DNA from: Shewanella sp. UCD-KL12
Lineage (GTDB): Bacteria; Pseudomonadota; Gammaproteobacteria; Enterobacterales; Shewanellaceae
Reading direction: 5' to 3'
DNA length: 64,000 bases
NCBI RefSeq assembly: GCF_001957125.1
Contig: NZ_MPHJ01000005.1
Coordinates: 1 to 64,000, forward strand
Shown: positions 46,615-55,388 of the stretch, in pieces
How the letters are laid out: each line of letters opens with the position of its first letter
Numbering within the stretch: the first letter of the stretch is position 1
The notes under the pieces: generated by a model
What the model was told of the DNA's origin: nothing
Database searches by the model: none
Seen by the model: only the letters and a program-made list of their open reading frames with translations
Position numbers and translations under genes: made by a program

Positions 46615-47832
46615 CTAAGTGTTAACAGTTAATACTGCTCTAAACAGCTTATCCTCTCTGGTAGAATGATAAGTCCAGCCTAGCTGGTTAGCTAAACGCT
46701 CAACAAGCATTAAGCCTAAACCAAAACCACTACTGTTTTTCGGCGACATAGCATTAATAATTTCAATGGTATTACCCACCTGCTCGACTCTGATCCCTTG
46801 CGCCCCATGCTCTAAACTATTACGAACTAAGTTGTTTAAAATAATGGTGAGTGGATCTTTTTGCACAGTCACTTCGGTTTCATCACATATCAAGTCTATC
46901 GGTGAGTGATCCCCTTTAGCGTCTTGCTGATCGCTTATAACCTGACGTAAGAGTTCTGCCAATTTAACCTTGCTGTGCCCCATGGATGTACACTCAGAGC
47001 TCATTAACCAAAGTAAAGTTTCTGTAATAGACTTCATCTGCCGAGTTGCCTGGCTAGCATGTAAAGTCGGCCCCTCTAATTGACCGTGCTGCAGGGTTAG
47101 AATATCAAAAGATGACTGACATATAGCAATAGGTGTGCGCAGTTCGTGGCTAGCAAAACGTAAAAATGATAACTCCCTTTGCTGCGCGTCTTTGAGCTGC
47201 TTAATCGAGATATCCAGAGCATCTACAATCGACTGTAATTCGGCGTAGCATTGCTGGGGGAAGTTAAGGCTTTGCATTTTTTGCCAGTCATGCTGCTTAA
47301 TTGCACGACTTATTTGATGGACTGGCGATATAACTCGACTTTGCATATATAAAGCCAGGCTGGCAACAACACCGAAAGTCATGGTGATCAATAGACAGAT
47401 TGCCGCCATATTTTTGGGGGCAAACTCCAGATCATGGGTCGCATTATAGTTAAGCCAGACATATAAATTCTCACCAGTGCGCTGCTCATATACCATTAAT
47501 GCATCGATGAACTGGCCATTATGGTGATGATATTCAACGTCATTTAATTGCGTCGGCTTAATGCCATTAGTAATTGATTTAACTTGCTCTGGAGCGCTGT
47601 CCCAATCCCTATATATTTTAATATTGTCTGTTTGGTAGAGGTTACCAGTCTCTACCAGATGCTGTTCTGCCGCCTGAGCCGCGCTTTTCATCGTGATCTC
47701 ATGCATGCTAAACATGCCAGTACACATCATGCATAAAGGAATAAAAATGTTTATCAATAAAGTCACAGCCAAAAAGACCACGCCATAGCATTGATATACA
47801 CGCTTTAAACTCATCTTATGCTTCATTAACAT
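46615..47832 (-). CDS. Two-component sensor histidine kinase
   Basis: A kinase of about 405 residues. Helices lie near residues 13-38 and 140-160 with a roughly 100-residue periplasmic sensor between. Then come HAMP, the phospho-acceptor His in ASHELRTPIAI, the N-box NLVRNSLEHG and the G2 box GFGLGLMLV. The G1 box is weak (EIINAMSPKNSSG, lacking the DxGxG Asp), which is unusual. Start candidates are ATG 47832, 47826 and 47814. It overlaps the regulator by 17 nt if 47832 is used. Last gene of the luxR-regulator-kinase operon. Confidence 0.85.
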   Translation of the reverse strand: MLMKHKMSLKRVYQCYGVVFLAVTLLINIFIPLCMMCTGMFSMHEITMKSAAQAAEQHLVETGNLYQTDNIKIYRDWDSAPEQVKSITNGIKPTQLNDVEYHHHNGQFIDALMVYEQRTGENLYVWLNYNATHDLEFAPKNMAAICLLITMTFGVVASLALYMQSRVISPVHQISRAIKQHDWQKMQSLNFPQQCYAELQSIVDALDISIKQLKDAQQRELSFLRFASHELRTPIAICQSSFDILTLQHGQLEGPTLHASQATRQMKSITETLLWLMSSECTSMGHSKVKLAELLRQVISDQQDAKGDHSPIDLICDETEVTVQKDPLTIILNNLVRNSLEHGAQGIRVEQVGNTIEIINAMSPKNSSGFGLGLMLVERLANQLGWTYHSTREDKLFRAVLTVNT

Positions 47833-48490
47833 CAGCCTTCAAACATAAACCAACGCCCCGAATAGTATGGAGATATTGATATTTATAAGGCTTATCAACG
47901 ATTTTTCTTAATAGGTGCATATGACTTCTTAAACTGTCACTATCTGGCAAACTATCAGGCCATAATATGCGTTCAATCTCTTCACGCTCAACAGTCTCTG
48001 GGCTACGTCTAGCGAGTAAAGATAATATCTGCCAGCCTGTACGAGAAAGTAGTAACTCTTCACCTAAACGGTGTACGCGATGGCCCGCAAAATCGAACTC
48101 TAGTTCACCAATTTTTAATAATTTGGGGGCTGGCCTACGCTCAGCAACGACTCTTAACCTAGCCACCAGCTCAGGCATGGCAAATGGTTTAATTAAATAG
48201 TCATCAGCTCCCACTTCAAAGCCGGATAGCTTATCTTGCAATCCACTCCTAGCTGTTAGCATGATAACAGGTGAAATTACCCGCTGATCTTTCCACTTTT
48301 TACAGGCTTCAAGACCATCGCCATCAGGCAAGTTCAGGTCAAGAATAATGGCGTCATAAGGTCGGCTGTAAACTTGGCTATCAGCTTGTGCTAACGAACG
48401 AGCGTAGTCACACTCGATATCGATAAGCTCTAAATAATGAATAATATTCTTTGCTAATAAATGATTATCTTCAACAAGTAATACCAACAT
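47816..48490 (-). CDS. OmpR-family response regulator
   Basis: A 224-residue regulator. The receiver has VEDNHLLAK, phospho-acceptor Asp in DAIILDLNLPDGDGL, LTARSGLQDK and DDYLIKPFAMPEL. The winged helix has LSRTGWQILSLLARRSPETVEREEIERILWP and ends RSHMHLLRKIVDKPYKY, with LHTIRGVGLCL. It begins 3 nt after the luxR-type gene, so the three regulators are one operon. The direct repeats upstream of the channel-reductase operon fit binding by such a protein. Confidence 0.9.
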   Translation of the reverse strand: MLVLLVEDNHLLAKNIIHYLELIDIECDYARSLAQADSQVYSRPYDAIILDLNLPDGDGLEACKKWKDQRVISPVIMLTARSGLQDKLSGFEVGADDYLIKPFAMPELVARLRVVAERRPAPKLLKIGELEFDFAGHRVHRLGEELLLSRTGWQILSLLARRSPETVEREEIERILWPDSLPDSDSLRSHMHLLRKIVDKPYKYQYLHTIRGVGLCLKADVNEA

Positions 48491-48493
48491 GGC

Positions 48494-49240
48494 CTATATA
48501 ATCTCCAGCTGATGAGCAATATGAACCAAATTCGCTCGATTGCTTGCCGACAGCTTATTTCTCATGGTCTCTAGATGATATTCCACTCCACGAATAGTAA
48601 TGTGAAGCTCCTCCGATATCTCGGAGTTTTGTAAGCCTCTCGCTACCATTTTTAACGCTTTAATCGCTGTTTGATTAAAAAGTGTGGCTTGTCTATAGGG
48701 ATTTAATTGATGGTGATAATGTTCTAGCAATGTTGATTGCGCTCGTTTCATTGAAGTCTCTAAATGGACAAGATTTAACTGTGTATCTTTATCTTTAGAT
48801 AGCAAGGTGAAACGCCCACTCCAAGCTTCAGAGGCGTAATGTCGAACAGGGTAACTGAGCACGGTTTTTATGCCATAGGTGTTAAATAGCTTATGGGCTT
48901 TTTTAGCCTGCCCACTTCCAGATAACTGGTAATAATAGGCTTGCTCTAAATTTAACGCATGACCAAAATTGCAGTCTCTAGCAGCGACTTGCTCTATATA
49001 TTGGCGTTGTAACTTCTGGACTGTACGTGACGAGCTATATACGCCTCCCGAGCTATATAACATTCGCCGACTTAGGATACTTTTCTTACTATTGAGCAGG
49101 AAGTCTTGAGACGCTCTATTTGGGATACCTTGAAACCAAAATCCAGCAAAACCCAGCTGTGATATTGCAGGCATCATTGTCTGTAGAATCAAAGGAGATA
49201 TGACGAACTCAGCTAAACTATCGCTTTCACTATTTTGCAT
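48494..49240 (-). CDS. LuxR-type transcriptional regulator
   Basis: A 248-residue regulator. The C-terminal HTH_LuxR is clear: NQTAIKALKMVARGLQNSEI and ITIRGVEYHLETMRNKLSASNRANLVHIA (residues 180-245). The N-terminal 170 residues look like an autoinducer-binding-like sensor (GIKTVLSYPVRHY, WSGRFTLLSK), though the acyl-homoserine-lactone Trp/Tyr/Asp set is not obvious. No luxI is nearby. Being co-transcribed with an OmpR-type regulator and kinase is unusual. Confidence 0.8.
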   Translation of the reverse strand: MQNSESDSLAEFVISPLILQTMMPAISQLGFAGFWFQGIPNRASQDFLLNSKKSILSRRMLYSSGGVYSSSRTVQKLQRQYIEQVAARDCNFGHALNLEQAYYYQLSGSGQAKKAHKLFNTYGIKTVLSYPVRHYASEAWSGRFTLLSKDKDTQLNLVHLETSMKRAQSTLLEHYHHQLNPYRQATLFNQTAIKALKMVARGLQNSEISEELHITIRGVEYHLETMRNKLSASNRANLVHIAHQLEII

Positions 49241-51092: not shown

Positions 51093-51452
51093 CTATACGG
51101 CTGAAATAGCCTTTAGAAGAGATGGCGTTAAGGTTTTTCTCAAAGCCAACATGGCAACACCCTTGCAGATTTTCTTGGCATAGTTACGAGTTAAACTGCT
51201 TACCAGCTCATCACTCGCCGTCACACTTAGCCATTTTGAATTCTCAACCATCTGCATTATATCTTCAGCGCTATTGAGCTTGTTATCAAAAACAATAGCC
51301 ACAGAACCTGCATATCGCTTGAAGCTAATATCAACAATACCAGTCAAATCTTTCATTTCATCTATTTGCGCAGAAACAAGTTTTGGATTAGTTCTGATGA
51401 AGTCAGAACGGACTCTGATGCGATTGGCAGTGCTGTGAATGAGAGGCTTCAT
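51093..51452 (-). CDS. HMA-like small protein, divergent from the ATPase operon
   Basis: A 119-residue protein related in pattern to the HMA-like domains of the neighbouring operon. ANRIRVRSDFI corresponds to the HxPGRxRxR segment, and DISFKRYAGSVAIVFDNKLNSAEDIMQMVEN corresponds to the second half of the ferredoxin-like fold. There is no CxxC metal site. A basic, partly hydrophobic C-terminal helix follows (YAKKICKGVAMLALRKTL). It is transcribed away from the operon starting at 51597. Confidence 0.6.
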   Translation of the reverse strand: MKPLIHSTANRIRVRSDFIRTNPKLVSAQIDEMKDLTGIVDISFKRYAGSVAIVFDNKLNSAEDIMQMVENSKWLSVTASDELVSSLTRNYAKKICKGVAMLALRKTLTPSLLKAISAV

Positions 51453-51596
51453 AGATTCAACGCTAATGAGAATGACTTTTATTCATGTTACACCTGACGT
51501 CTTTACAATTCAACTCAGATTTCTTTGATCTTGAGCAGTTTTTCACGTTTGCAAAGGGGATAATCTGAGCCTAATTTGACGCAAGTGTATATTTTT

Positions 51597-51947
51597 ATGA
51601 TGAAAAGTGAAGATGATAATCATTTCGAACAGCTCAAGCAGTGGGTGTCTGTTGCTCACCATATTCCAGGGCGACTGAGACTCAAATTTAAATTAAGTGT
51701 TATTAGCTACTTAAGAGACTTTAATACCGACGGGATAAAAAGCACCCTTCAAAGTTTTCCAGCTTTGAAAGATTATCGCCTCAATATCGCCGCCGGCAGT
51801 TTAGTGATCGAGTATGACGCACAGGTCATCCCATTTAACTTGATCAACCAAGCCTTCGACCAACACCCAGAAACATCCACTGCGGCGATCAATCAGCTGC
51901 AGCAGTTAGCTGAACAACTTTTACCTGAACTAGGAGAACTATCATGA
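51597..51947 (+). CDS. HMA-like domain protein, first gene of the ATPase operon
   Basis: About 116 residues. VAHHIPGRLRLKFK and NIAAGSLVIEYDAQVIPFNLINQAF match the HMA_2-type fold seen at the N-terminus of the operon's ATPase (HHVPGRARFRVP, SIVIEYDHQLI). The CxxC metal motif of classical HMA domains is absent. The start is uncertain: ATG 51597 or 51600, or an upstream GTG or TTG. The stop overlaps the next ATG by 4 nt (ATGA). Confidence 0.65.
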   Translation: MMKSEDDNHFEQLKQWVSVAHHIPGRLRLKFKLSVISYLRDFNTDGIKSTLQSFPALKDYRLNIAAGSLVIEYDAQVIPFNLINQAFDQHPETSTAAINQLQQLAEQLLPELGELS

Positions 51948-52681
51948 ATAATAAGGACCAAGAGAACTATCAAGGTATGCCTTTCCCGCCTCATCAAGAT
52001 CCTGCCGCTCTATGGCATGCTCAGGCAATGCACTACTACGGATACCCACCGCAGCCGATGACTCCTCCGCCAGGTTACTATCCACCTCAACACATGATGC
52101 CACCTCAACCTATGATGCCGCCTCAAGGTCATCCTCAGATGCATCCCCATGCTCATATGCACCAGCATCAAGGACAATTTCAGCATGGTCACCCGCATAT
52201 GCATCACAATGGTCACCAAGATCATGGCTCTGAGCACCATGGCCAGAGCGATGCTATTTTTCAGCAGGCTCAAGGCATGCTTGAGGGTATGATGGGCGAT
52301 CAAGCAGGCATATTCAAAGACCTTATTCATAAGCTCGGCGTCGATGATAAAGAGTTTTGGAAAGGGGCAATGATAGGTGCGGCTGCCGCCATGATTATGA
52401 GTAATGAAAATGTGCGCAATAGCATGATGCAGATGTTTATGGGCGCTGGCGACATGCTTAAAACAGGTGCCGACAAGGTCAAACAAGGCTCAGCACAGAC
52501 AGCCAGCAGCGTAAAAAATAATGTAAATGCGGGTAGCGAGATATTCCGCGAAACATATCAAGCGGGTAAACAAGGTTTTAATGAGTCAGTTGAGCGTCAC
52601 CGTGCACCAGATGAAGCTACGCCAACAGAGCCGAATGAGACTCCAGAGCCAGCAAGCGTGACGCCAGAGAGCGAAAAGTGA
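51944..52681 (+). CDS. His/Met/Pro-rich protein with a short membrane segment
   Basis: A 245-residue protein. Residues 10-105 are extremely rich in His, Met, Pro, Gln and Tyr (for example HPQMHPHAHMHQHQGQF), typical of low-affinity Cu/Ni/Zn-binding or metal-buffer regions. A hydrophobic stretch WKGAMIGAAAAMIMSNENV near 140-158 is followed by an amphipathic helix and an acidic Pro/Glu tail. The GAA-A-MSN-xx-V-xx-S pattern recurs in the gene at 52976. Both ends overlap neighbours (ATGA, GTGA). I recognise no named family; metal handling for the ATPase is inferred. Confidence 0.7.
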   Translation: MNNKDQENYQGMPFPPHQDPAALWHAQAMHYYGYPPQPMTPPPGYYPPQHMMPPQPMMPPQGHPQMHPHAHMHQHQGQFQHGHPHMHHNGHQDHGSEHHGQSDAIFQQAQGMLEGMMGDQAGIFKDLIHKLGVDDKEFWKGAMIGAAAAMIMSNENVRNSMMQMFMGAGDMLKTGADKVKQGSAQTASSVKNNVNAGSEIFRETYQAGKQGFNESVERHRAPDEATPTEPNETPEPASVTPESEK

Positions 52682-52989
52682 GTAACCAATCAGATCAACT
52701 CAGTCCTGCCAGTCGCGCCATGATAGCCGCGGCCTTGATAGGTGGTGGCGCCTCCTCTGCTAAACAGTGGCACGCCTATCAACAGCAGGAAGTGAGTTTA
52801 GATGAAGCGACAAAACAGGTGCTTACCGACGCGGTTAAAGCGGGCGCGATTGGCGGCCTAGCCACTGCAGCCGCTGGAGCGATGGCGGGTCGACCTCTGT
52901 TGTCGATGTTAGCTCTACTCAGTGTTGGCGCCGCAGGCATGCACCTAATGGACGAAATGAAAGGAAATACCCAAGATGAAGAAGCCTAA
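52678..52989 (+). CDS. Small Ala/Gly-rich membrane protein
   Basis: A 103-residue protein starting with GTG inside the preceding stop (GTGA overlap). Hydrophobic helices lie near residues 13-27 (RAMIAAALIGGGASS) and 53-90 (AGAIGGLATAAAGAMAGRPLLSMLALLSVGAAGM), with an amphipathic segment between and an acidic tail. No metal-binding motif is visible. No family is recognised. Its end overlaps the next gene by 14 nt. Confidence 0.65.
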   Translation: MSNQSDQLSPASRAMIAAALIGGGASSAKQWHAYQQQEVSLDEATKQVLTDAVKAGAIGGLATAAAGAMAGRPLLSMLALLSVGAAGMHLMDEMKGNTQDEEA

Positions 52990-53287
52990 TTCTCCCTATT
53001 ACAACCCATATTACAATCCATACAATCAGCCATATTATTCACAAGCTCAGGCACCCGCGGCGCCCTACAGTAAACAGAATAACCGCACTCACTTAGTGAC
53101 AGGCATAGTGGCTGGCGCTGCTATTGCTTACTTAATGTCGAATAAGAAGGTTCAGCAAAGTGTGACACAAACAGGTGCAAAGGCCTGGTCAGCTGTACGC
53201 GGTGAAGTTGAAGAGTTGAAAGAGAAGCTTGAGGATAGCCAAGCTGAACTTGAGTATTATCGAAATCTACACAAGGATGCTCAATGA
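52976..53287 (+). CDS. YtxH-like single-helix protein with coiled-coil tail
   Basis: A 103-residue protein. The N-terminus is Tyr/Asn/Pro-rich (SPYYNPYYNPYNQPYY), followed by one helix THLVTGIVAGAAIAYLMSNKKV (residues 38-60) and a charged coiled coil (VEELKEKLEDSQAELEYYRN). The helix-plus-MSNxxV pattern resembles that of the His/Met-rich protein, so the two may share ancestry or interact. The layout is like YtxH and like mycobacterial PacL proteins. The stop overlaps the ATPase ATG by 4 nt. Confidence 0.65.
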   Translation: MKKPNSPYYNPYYNPYNQPYYSQAQAPAAPYSKQNNRTHLVTGIVAGAAIAYLMSNKKVQQSVTQTGAKAWSAVRGEVEELKEKLEDSQAELEYYRNLHKDAQ

Positions 53288-55347
53288 CCTCTATCCTGCT
53301 TGTCCATCATGTTCCCGGACGTGCGCGTTTCAGAGTGCCTGAAATCGCCTGCCATCCGGACACTCAATCATGGGTGAAACAGGGCTTGTTGGCTATTCAA
53401 GGTGTATTGCAAGTTAGAGTCAATGATGCAGCTAAATCGATTGTTATCGAGTATGACCACCAGCTGATAGAGCCATCTATGCTGCAGCAGCGTATCGACG
53501 ATCTAGATTGGGAGAGTGCCACTCAAGGCGAGAGTGAACATGACTTTACCCGAGGTGATGTCGTGCTAAATGTGATTGGCGTATTGGCGAGTTATTTTCT
53601 TCCCGGACGCTTTGCAGCATTAACGACCCTCCCTTTGATTGCACCGACAATTCAAGAGGGTGTAGAGAGTATCAAGGAGCGCTCTCTTAAAGTTGAAGCA
53701 CTTGATGCGATTGCTGTTGGCCTTTCTGCTTGGCGTGGTGACTATAAGACAGCCATGTTAACGCAGTCACTGCTGACCTTAGGCGAGTATATGGAGCAGG
53801 AGACTAGCCGTAACAGCGATCAAATGCTGGCTAACCTCATGCAACCTAATGTTCGTCAGATCTGGGTTTGGCGTGATGGTGTTGAGATGCAGGTCGCCTC
53901 TGACAGCTTAGTGGTTGGCGATAACATGCTATTAAGTCCTGGCGACCCTGTGCCTGCTGATGGCAGAATTGTCAAAGGCGAAGCCTTGATCAATCAAGCC
54001 TCACTCACTGGCGAAAGTGTCCCCGTAAGGCGAGAGTTAGACGCCTACCTTTACGCTGGCACCTTAGTACAGGAAGGTAATATTGTCGTTGAGGCCGATA
54101 AGGTCGGTAGTGAAGCGACAACGGCTCGTATTGCCCAGTTTATCGCAGACTCTCTTAGCGAGAAGAGCGAGACTCAACAAGCGACACAAGCGATGGCCGA
54201 TCGCCGAGTTAAGATCACCTTAGGCATAGGCGCACTCGTGTTCGGCCTCACTCAAGATGTGAACCGCTTAGCCTCAGTGTTTCTTGTCGATTACTCCTGC
54301 GCCCTGAAATTAAGTACCCCAGTGGCCTTTAAGTCCATTATGTACCGCGCTGCCAATCAAGGCCTGCTGCTAAAAGGCGGTCGCGCCATTGAGCAATTAG
54401 CGCAGGTCGATACCTGTATTTTTGATAAAACAGGTACCCTGACCTATGGGGATATGGAAGTCACAGATGTGATCTGTCTGCGTGATAAAGATGATGCCAG
54501 AGAGCTGTTAGCCATCGCGGCTTCAGTTGAAGAGCACTGTAACCATCCTTTATCGCAATCGATAGTCAATGCAGCCAAACATCATGAGTTGCCACATATT
54601 GACCATGGGGAAGTTGAATATGTCATTGCGCATGGACTACGCAGTAACCTTAATGGCAATGTTCTCGTCATAGGTAGCCGTCACTTCTTAGAGGTGCATG
54701 AAAATGTTAACTTCGCCGCTTCTGAAGAGCAGATTGAAGCATTGGAAGCTCAAGGAAGACATCTGCTATTTGTCTCTAAAAACGAGAAGTTAATTGGGAT
54801 TATAGGCCTGACTGACAATATCAGGCCTGAGGCGATTGAAACCTTGCAAGCATTGAGAGCAGCCGGTATCAAGCAACTGGTGTTGCTTACAGGCGACAAG
54901 CAGGCAAAGGCTGAGCAGATTGCTGCCGAGCTCGGTATGGATATGGTGTTTGCTGATGCCACGCCAGAGTCGAAAGCAGACATAGTTTCTCAGCTGCAAG
55001 CTGCTGGTCATAAGGTGATGTTTGTGGGTGATGGGGTGAATGATGCACCTGCACTCACCAATGCAGATATCGGTGTCGCTATGGGTCAAGGTACTGAGCT
55101 TGCTCAGCAAACCGCTGATGCCGTCTTGCTGAAAGAGGGAATATCTGGCCTAGTCGATGCGCGTCTATTATCCCAAGAAGCGATGAAACTAGTAAGCAGT
55201 AACATCCGTATAGCAGAAGTAGTAAATAGCGGTATTATGCTCGCAGCTGCGCTCGGGAAACTCAGCCCTGCAGCAAGTGCTTTACTGCATAACGGTACCA
55301 CCTTAGGTGTGTTATTAAGATCCCTCGCGGTCAGAAAAGCCAGCTAG
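53284..55347 (+). CDS. P1B-like P-type ATPase with atypical ion-site motif
   Basis: A 687-residue P-type ATPase. An N-terminal HMA-like domain without CxxC (HHVPGRARFRVP) is followed by membrane helices, the actuator SLTGESVPV, phosphorylation site FDKTGTLTYGD, HP motif CNHPLSQSI (typical of P1B metal pumps) and hinge VGDGVNDAPAL. The membrane motif before the P-domain is YSCALKLSTP, not CPC, SPC or TPC, so metal preference cannot be read from known rules. It is smaller in the first membrane region than CopA or ZntA. It is the last gene of the coupled operon, followed by a terminator. Confidence 0.85.
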   Translation: MTSILLVHHVPGRARFRVPEIACHPDTQSWVKQGLLAIQGVLQVRVNDAAKSIVIEYDHQLIEPSMLQQRIDDLDWESATQGESEHDFTRGDVVLNVIGVLASYFLPGRFAALTTLPLIAPTIQEGVESIKERSLKVEALDAIAVGLSAWRGDYKTAMLTQSLLTLGEYMEQETSRNSDQMLANLMQPNVRQIWVWRDGVEMQVASDSLVVGDNMLLSPGDPVPADGRIVKGEALINQASLTGESVPVRRELDAYLYAGTLVQEGNIVVEADKVGSEATTARIAQFIADSLSEKSETQQATQAMADRRVKITLGIGALVFGLTQDVNRLASVFLVDYSCALKLSTPVAFKSIMYRAANQGLLLKGGRAIEQLAQVDTCIFDKTGTLTYGDMEVTDVICLRDKDDARELLAIAASVEEHCNHPLSQSIVNAAKHHELPHIDHGEVEYVIAHGLRSNLNGNVLVIGSRHFLEVHENVNFAASEEQIEALEAQGRHLLFVSKNEKLIGIIGLTDNIRPEAIETLQALRAAGIKQLVLLTGDKQAKAEQIAAELGMDMVFADATPESKADIVSQLQAAGHKVMFVGDGVNDAPALTNADIGVAMGQGTELAQQTADAVLLKEGISGLVDARLLSQEAMKLVSSNIRIAEVVNSGIMLAAALGKLSPAASALLHNGTTLGVLLRSLAVRKAS

Positions 55348-55358
55348 TACAAGCAATG

Positions 55359-55388
55359 AAAAAAGCGCTGAACTGTCAGCGCTTTTTT
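55359..55388 (+). terminator. Intrinsic terminator of the ATPase operon
   Basis: AAAAAAGCGCTGA (55359-55371) pairs with TCAGCGCTTTTTT (55376-55388), a perfect 13-bp stem with a 4-nt loop, 11 nt after the ATPase stop. It is also suited to the convergent antiporter gene. Confidence 0.9.

Follow-up and report, generated by a model that had tools for sequence, protein, structure and literature searches.

We analyzed a window of 64,000 nucleotides from Shewanella sp. UCD-KL12 (NZ_MPHJ01000005.1, positions 1 to 64,000), in which six open frames, here called genes a to f, were confirmed at positions 51093-55347 (Table 1). Gene a diverges from genes b to f (51576-55347), which follow one another with overlaps of 4, 4, 14, and 4 bases, and the initial annotation of this DNA, which had described five overlapping plus-strand genes beside a divergent HMA-like gene, was therefore correct for all six frames. 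Its positions and protein classes were also sound, although it missed both the likeness of the two-helix protein to the magnetosome protein MamC and the kinship of the cluster with those of ferrosomes, bacterial iron organelles that were described only recently and have been studied in few hosts. For gene b, an in-frame ATG at 51597 or 51600 seems likelier to be the true start than the TTG listed.

Table 1. Features of the six-gene cluster. Positions are those of the window except in the last row, where they are those of the loci named.
Feature	Position	Strand	Description
gene a	51093..51452	-	HMA_2-like domain and C-terminal hydrophobic stretch; divergent; positional counterpart of the first canonical fez gene
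gene b	51576..51947	+	HMA_2-like; HHIPGR where CxxC is expected; listed start TTG 51576
gene c	51944..52681	+	N-terminal half rich in His/Met/Pro/Gln; one hydrophobic helix; YtxH-like tail
gene d	52678..52989	+	two-helix membrane protein; probable homolog of magnetosome MamC
gene e	52976..53287	+	N-terminus rich in Tyr/Asn/Pro; one hydrophobic helix; charged YtxH-like tail
gene f	53284..55347	+	FezB-like P1B-6 ATPase; N-terminal HMA_2; DYSCALKLSTP 336-346; LLHNGTT 667-673
Weak Fur-box-like stretch, 14/19	51609..51627	no strand	start of gene b; alone not unusual for the window
13-pair hairpin, T run on either strand	55359..55388	no strand	directly 3' of the ATPase gene; terminator-like (consensus match only)
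Lysine-rich protein	L013 3167-3646, L014 8809-9288, L015 2823-3299, L017 2787-3272, L018 8491-8970, L019 3149-3628		beside gene a in other Shewanella clusters

The Pfam family HMA_2 (PF19991) matched gene b at 34.5 bits and the ATPase at 39.3 bits, and gene a at 25.3 bits, below the cut-off of 30. No Pfam family was found for genes c and d. The product of gene e gave a weak YtxH match, which, like its SARAF match, was below the cut-off and was taken as compositional or superfamily-level. A helix that the initial annotation had seen in both the third and fifth genes (c and e) held at the family level, with a profile comparison giving 89.6% over 28 columns. Across 17 members, the whole gene c protein contained 2-10% His and 4-12% Met, with the L131 member lowest in His.

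The ATPase encoded by gene f had DYSCALKLSTP and no CPC, and its HMA-like domain had HHVPGR (residues 8-13) where CxxC is expected; both substitutions had been read correctly before. In the structure model (mean predicted local distance difference test score [pLDDT] of 80.1, predicted template modeling score [pTM] of 0.68), an N-terminal HMA-like fold was followed by eight long helices placed where membrane parts are expected, the last of which (662-685) contained the HN of LLHNGTT. DYSCALKL[S/A]TP and HNG were present in 44 of 44 fez-type pumps, whereas the two CPC controls, the other P1B pumps of the host (L002 and L003), had CPC and lacked HNG. An HN motif in transmembrane helix 6 (TM6) is given as a P1B6 feature in the excerpted part of PMC9374683, and the earlier statement that known specificity rules do not apply to this pump is therefore not supported. 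From the family to which the pump belongs, we infer that Fe would be its substrate.

The distribution of these genes was compared in 17 window-type clusters, comprising that of the window, 7 more from the genus, and 9 drawn from the order. All six genes were found in 15 of the 17; genes b, c, e, and f were present in every cluster and in identical order, gene a was missing only from L016, and gene d was missing only from L123. The ATPase was found at an E value of 1e-100 or better in 9 of 97 genomes of the genus, one of the 9 at only 39% identity, and when 129 genomes of the genus were searched with this 39% pump as the query, 12 had the pump. In the order, the ATPase occurred in 12 of 295 genomes. 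The gene e profile found the same 12 genomes, with gene e adjacent to the pump gene each time, and gave no match in the 283 others. The gene d profile found 9 of 10 window-type genomes and gave no match in the 285 others, 2 of which have a pump of the canonical type described below. These results show an association beyond chance that is conserved in order across gammaproteobacteria, which was the check proposed in the initial annotation, and they bear out its view that a metal ATPase is coupled in one operon with small partner proteins dedicated to it. Pump relatives named among the matches listed came from Vibrio, Photobacterium, Psychromonas, Ferrimonas, Veronia, and several Shewanella. In the pump tree, the window type was monophyletic (100/100), and the window pump paired (96/83) with one labeled as that of an uncultured Photobacterium and stood apart from those of other Shewanella. 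Only these two aspects of the tree are used here: a long internal branch leads to the window type, the position of the ingroup root is uncertain, and the canonical rows are stop-to-stop frames longer than the real proteins.

The pump with 39% identity, from genome G083, belongs to an operon of six genes (locus L020). Six-gene fez operons were reportedly described by Grant et al. in 2022 in R. palustris and S. putrefaciens; the latter name was not seen among the matches listed for the pump, many rows of which bear no species name. Named genomes were scanned with an alignment led by the G083 pump, and the best 80 of 575 loci, which include Rhodopseudomonas sp. BR0M22 (L071), Magnetospirillum, Azospirillum, Aeromonas, and Azotobacter, were kept as a set that we infer to represent canonical fez clusters. 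An ATPase profile was built from the 69 of 80 loci that passed the ATPase filter, and profiles of the small genes were built from the 22 in which all five were detected in order. One small gene went undetected in 30 of the other 47 loci, among them L071, where a distance limit had dropped gene e; on direct view of L071, all of its genes were present. The iterative family search placed both HMA genes and the ATPase domain in one family and both YtxH-like genes in another, and positions were reassigned by order. The layout in the 22 loci and in L071 was HMA, HMA, YtxH-like, d, YtxH-like, ATPase. The class order in the window is the same, with gene a flipped.

The window and canonical pumps were 38-41% identical. 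Profile comparison between the same classes gave 99.6% for gene b, 98.4% for gene e, and 100% for gene f. Gene a gave 92.9% to canonical a and 94.8% to the domain of canonical f, gene c gave 97.3% to canonical e and 82.4% to canonical c, and gene d gave 40.6% to canonical d and 40.8% to canonical e; apart from this last value, comparisons between unlike classes gave at most 4.3%. HMA_2 was found in 16 of 16 window-type gene a proteins and in 23 of 24 canonical ones (the 22 loci, L071, and L020). A weak DUF4405 match was also present in 8 of the 24 (best E value, 0.0013), with two invariant histidines in the DUF4405 part. FezC of D. magneticus is DUF4405-like, and that of Desulfurispirillum indicum binds heme, according to the excerpted part of PMC10979944. 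This DUF4405-like cytochrome is a recognized ferrosome component, although it is not known to occur in every such cluster. The cluster of the window thus shares with Rhodopseudomonas-type fez clusters two HMA_2 proteins, two YtxH-like proteins on either side of a small d protein, and a P1B-6 ATPase with DYSCALKL[S/A]TP and HNG. It differs from them in that gene a is divergent and without the DUF4405-like part, gene c has a His/Met-rich tail, and gene d is MamC-like, which canonical d is not. The DUF4405-less gene a, the His/Met/Pro-rich tail of gene c, and the MamC-like gene d appear to be new relative to the canonical clusters compared here. The canonical gene e of Azotobacter vinelandii (L092 6387-6998) has an N-terminal tail rich in Gly/Tyr/Met, and low-complexity tails on YtxH-like partners are therefore not limited to the window type.

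The likeness of gene d to MamC (Mms13), which controls magnetite crystal size according to the excerpted part of PMC7604359, was followed with several profiles. The NCBIfam MamC model (NF038051) matched window gene d at 22.6 bits (E value, 9.5e-5), compared to a curated cut-off of 100 bits, and matched 10 of 10 gene d members (best E value, 4e-9; bit scores seen, 22.6-33.9). A second MamC profile was built from two MamC proteins, found in 2 of the 6 genomes behind Magnetospirillum-type loci. With this profile, all 16 window-type gene d proteins scored 15.2-32.2 bits, compared to 12.4 bits for the best of 1600 shuffles and 5.7 bits for the best of 16 reversed sequences; of the 22 canonical d proteins, 20 were reported, with a best score of 11.1 and a median of 0.4 bits. 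Alignment of the gene d and MamC profiles with hhalign gave 94.4% over 78 gap-free columns that span the two hydrophobic helices with their connecting loop, at 28% identity, versus 0.5%-11.4% for canonical d, canonical e, window c, and window e. Opposite the Glu of the MamC loop, an acidic residue is present in 15 of 16 gene d proteins, and the Asp at +4 is mostly lost (by eye); this Glu/Asp pair may be the Glu66/Asp70 named in the excerpted part of PMC7604359. Gene d is therefore probably a MamC homolog, but its score is under the NCBIfam cut-off and does not file it as MamC. The same likeness might have arisen by convergence of Gly/Ala-rich paired helices, with gene d a generic membrane hairpin, and the low score relative to the NCBIfam cut-off, the low identity, and the use of only two MamC sequences in the second profile all fit this explanation. 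We nevertheless regard it as unlikely, given that all 16 proteins beat every shuffled and reversed sequence, that the alignment is free of gaps, that other cluster families stay far below gene d in the profile comparison, and that the NCBIfam model matches all 10 gene d members compared with it.

Regulation was examined by scanning a 19-base Fur consensus over the region between genes a and b, extended 60 bases into a and 120 into b, in the 17 loci. Matches of at least 14/19 were found in 13 of the 17 a/b regions, and in eight loci (L014, L015, L017, L019, L124-L126, and L129, some of them close relatives) the site was unequalled elsewhere in its own locus. FNR sites in the divergent region reached p < 0.05 in L130 only among the 17 loci, and a scan for sigma-70 promoters found 6 compared to 6.7 expected. 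The Fur boxes of the relatives hint at iron as the metal, the window's own site not being convincing.

Taken together, these results suggest that the cluster of the window is a diverged ferrosome (fez) gene cluster that would build small membrane-bound iron stores, a reading to which we give a probability of about 0.74. It is favored because pumps with approximately 39% identity sit in the same class layout, and because of the TM6 HN motif, the co-occurrence of gene e with the pump, the Fur boxes in relatives, and the MamC-like gene d. The gene set matches ferrosome clusters, and the earlier designation of an undescribed system is accordingly not supported. What the analysis shows is gene content, conserved order, homology, and exclusive co-occurrence; the iron substrate, the organelle, and the role of each protein are predictions. 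In such a ferrosome, small membrane compartments would arise at or from the inner membrane, and the FezB-like P1B-6 ATPase would fill them with Fe(II) taken from the cytoplasm. Proteins c and e, which are YtxH-like with a single helix, together with the HMA_2 proteins a and b, would scaffold the compartment and deliver metal to the ATPase; iron may be bound close to the ATPase by the His/Met-rich tail of gene c, and the MamC-like protein d would lie in the compartment membrane and affect the mineral. In C. difficile, the fez genes are Fur-repressed, and FezA and FezB are named as required in the excerpted part of PMC12574912. The cluster resembles that system in having a FezB-like pump with a membrane protein, and the repression there may be compared to the Fur boxes in the window's relatives; it differs in that six genes are present here versus two named required proteins, and the two are likened by description only.

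Several points weigh against the ferrosome reading. One-to-one descent appears clear for genes b, e, and f only, because gene a fits the domain of canonical f better and gene c fits canonical e better, and the correspondence at the fourth position, between gene d and canonical d, seems weak. DUF4405 was matched by Pfam in 0 of 16 window-type gene a proteins and in none of the other cluster genes of the window. The link between the canonical loci and RPA2333-2338 consists of genus, gene number, and the weak DUF4405 match, and the pattern search for canonical loci included [VA]DYSCALK, so that the canonical motif of transmembrane helix 4 (TM4) is partly built in. With regard to Fur, several of the 13 positive loci are close relatives and not independent, and the a/b regions of L016, L127, L128, and L131 reach only 10 to 12/19 matches. 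The site in the window proves nothing by itself, because 14 other positions in the 64 kb equal its score. Finally, the support is drawn from sequence, which does not fix the metal of the pump.

Two other functions were weighed for the same genes. In the first, an inner-membrane pump scaffolded by the small single-helix proteins would rid the cell of toxic Zn or Mn, as in the mycobacterial PacL1-CtpC platform, and no organelle would be formed. CtpC is called "P1B6-like" in the excerpted part of PMC9374683; it has the P1B-6 HN motif and is encoded beside a small single-helix protein, as is the pump here, and its PacL partner helps form a platform. Metal donation would be a fitting role for the His-rich tail of gene c, and some canonical relatives are labeled "manganese/zinc-transporting P-type ATPase C" in a source. 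However, CtpC has CPC in TM4, and PacL is a DUF1490 protein with a C-terminal DLHDHDH motif, neither of which was found here. No Pfam match to DUF1490 or DUF6110 was obtained up to an E value of 0.1 in the cluster genes of the window, and none was obtained in 10 members of the gene e family; the gene c protein ends in ...TPESEK and the gene e protein in ...NLHKDAQ. The lack of DUF1490/DUF6110, of CPC, and of DLHDHDH rules out membership in the PacL/CtpC family, and the analogy drawn in the initial annotation survives as a likeness in the way of working. Since iron is suggested by the Fur boxes of relatives and the layout is that of ferrosome clusters, an efflux platform of this kind is quite improbable. 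In the second, the pump would be a cell-membrane exporter of Fe(II) or of divalent metals in general, serving detoxification, with partners that only tune or feed it. P-type ATPases with HMA-like partners often serve detoxification, and the pump is accessory in the genus (12 of 129 genomes), a pattern common among resistance genes. The five small proteins dedicated to the pump, including the MamC-like one, nevertheless seem more than efflux would need, and the Fur boxes in relatives imply expression under a lack of iron, not an excess, which makes simple detoxification a very poor prospect. An ordinary exporter of the CopA/ZntA (CPC-type P1B) kind is ruled out by the lack of CPC in TM4.

If the ferrosome reading is correct, a ferrosome variant is present in Vibrio and Shewanella species that are easy to culture, which would widen the choice of models, and the MamC-like gene d would make mineral control in such compartments testable through the deletion of one gene. 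A bolder and rather doubtful extension is that a gammaproteobacterial branch, in Vibrio, Shewanella, Photobacterium, and Ferrimonas, has a MamC relative in the ferrosome membrane, so that the store would be shaped and perhaps crystalline. Ferrosomes and magnetosomes would then be tied to one protein ancestry, and genes would be supplied for the iron-dependent magnetic inclusions of Harveyi-clade Vibrio. To our knowledge, and with no such claim seen in the literature covered, which did not include the primary ferrosome papers, the MamC-like part would be the first known component common to ferrosomes and magnetosomes. Many of the pump records among the matches listed are from the Harveyi clade. 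The excerpted part of a report on Harveyi-clade Vibrio PS1 (PMC4069165) describes electron-dense inclusions of 10-50 nm, at least some of them magnetically separable, whose formation was inhibited by an iron chelator and which the authors likened to those of S. putrefaciens CN32; it also states that no surrounding membrane was seen. The absence of a visible membrane argues against simply equating the PS1 inclusions with ferrosomes, and the link to the cluster is at the clade level.

The slot occupied by the cluster in the window, between an NhaP-like antiporter gene and a major facilitator superfamily (MFS) gene, varies in content. Of four other genomes with the neighboring antiporter gene, the three examined are pump-less: in L141 (1868-1958) the slot holds nothing and the two flanking genes are approximately 90 bases apart, and in L139 (1872-3901) and L140 (8129-10242) it holds two genes whose products look, by eye, like a BlaI-type repressor and a membrane peptidase. 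In the fourth, G097, the cluster is located elsewhere. The cluster resembles an accessory module whose site is variable.

Three minor observations were made alongside these. A lysine-rich protein of approximately 159 amino acids, absent from the window, lies beside gene a in six Shewanella clusters (Table 1), and its L014 copy gave no Pfam match above the cut-off. Among the genomes of the genus sample that lack the pump, HMA_2 was matched only once, at G044:C1:3260046-3260285 (locus L031; E value, 1.5e-4). In the window itself, two regulators, by eye a response regulator and one of the LuxR type, are encoded at 47816-49240, upstream of the MFS gene.

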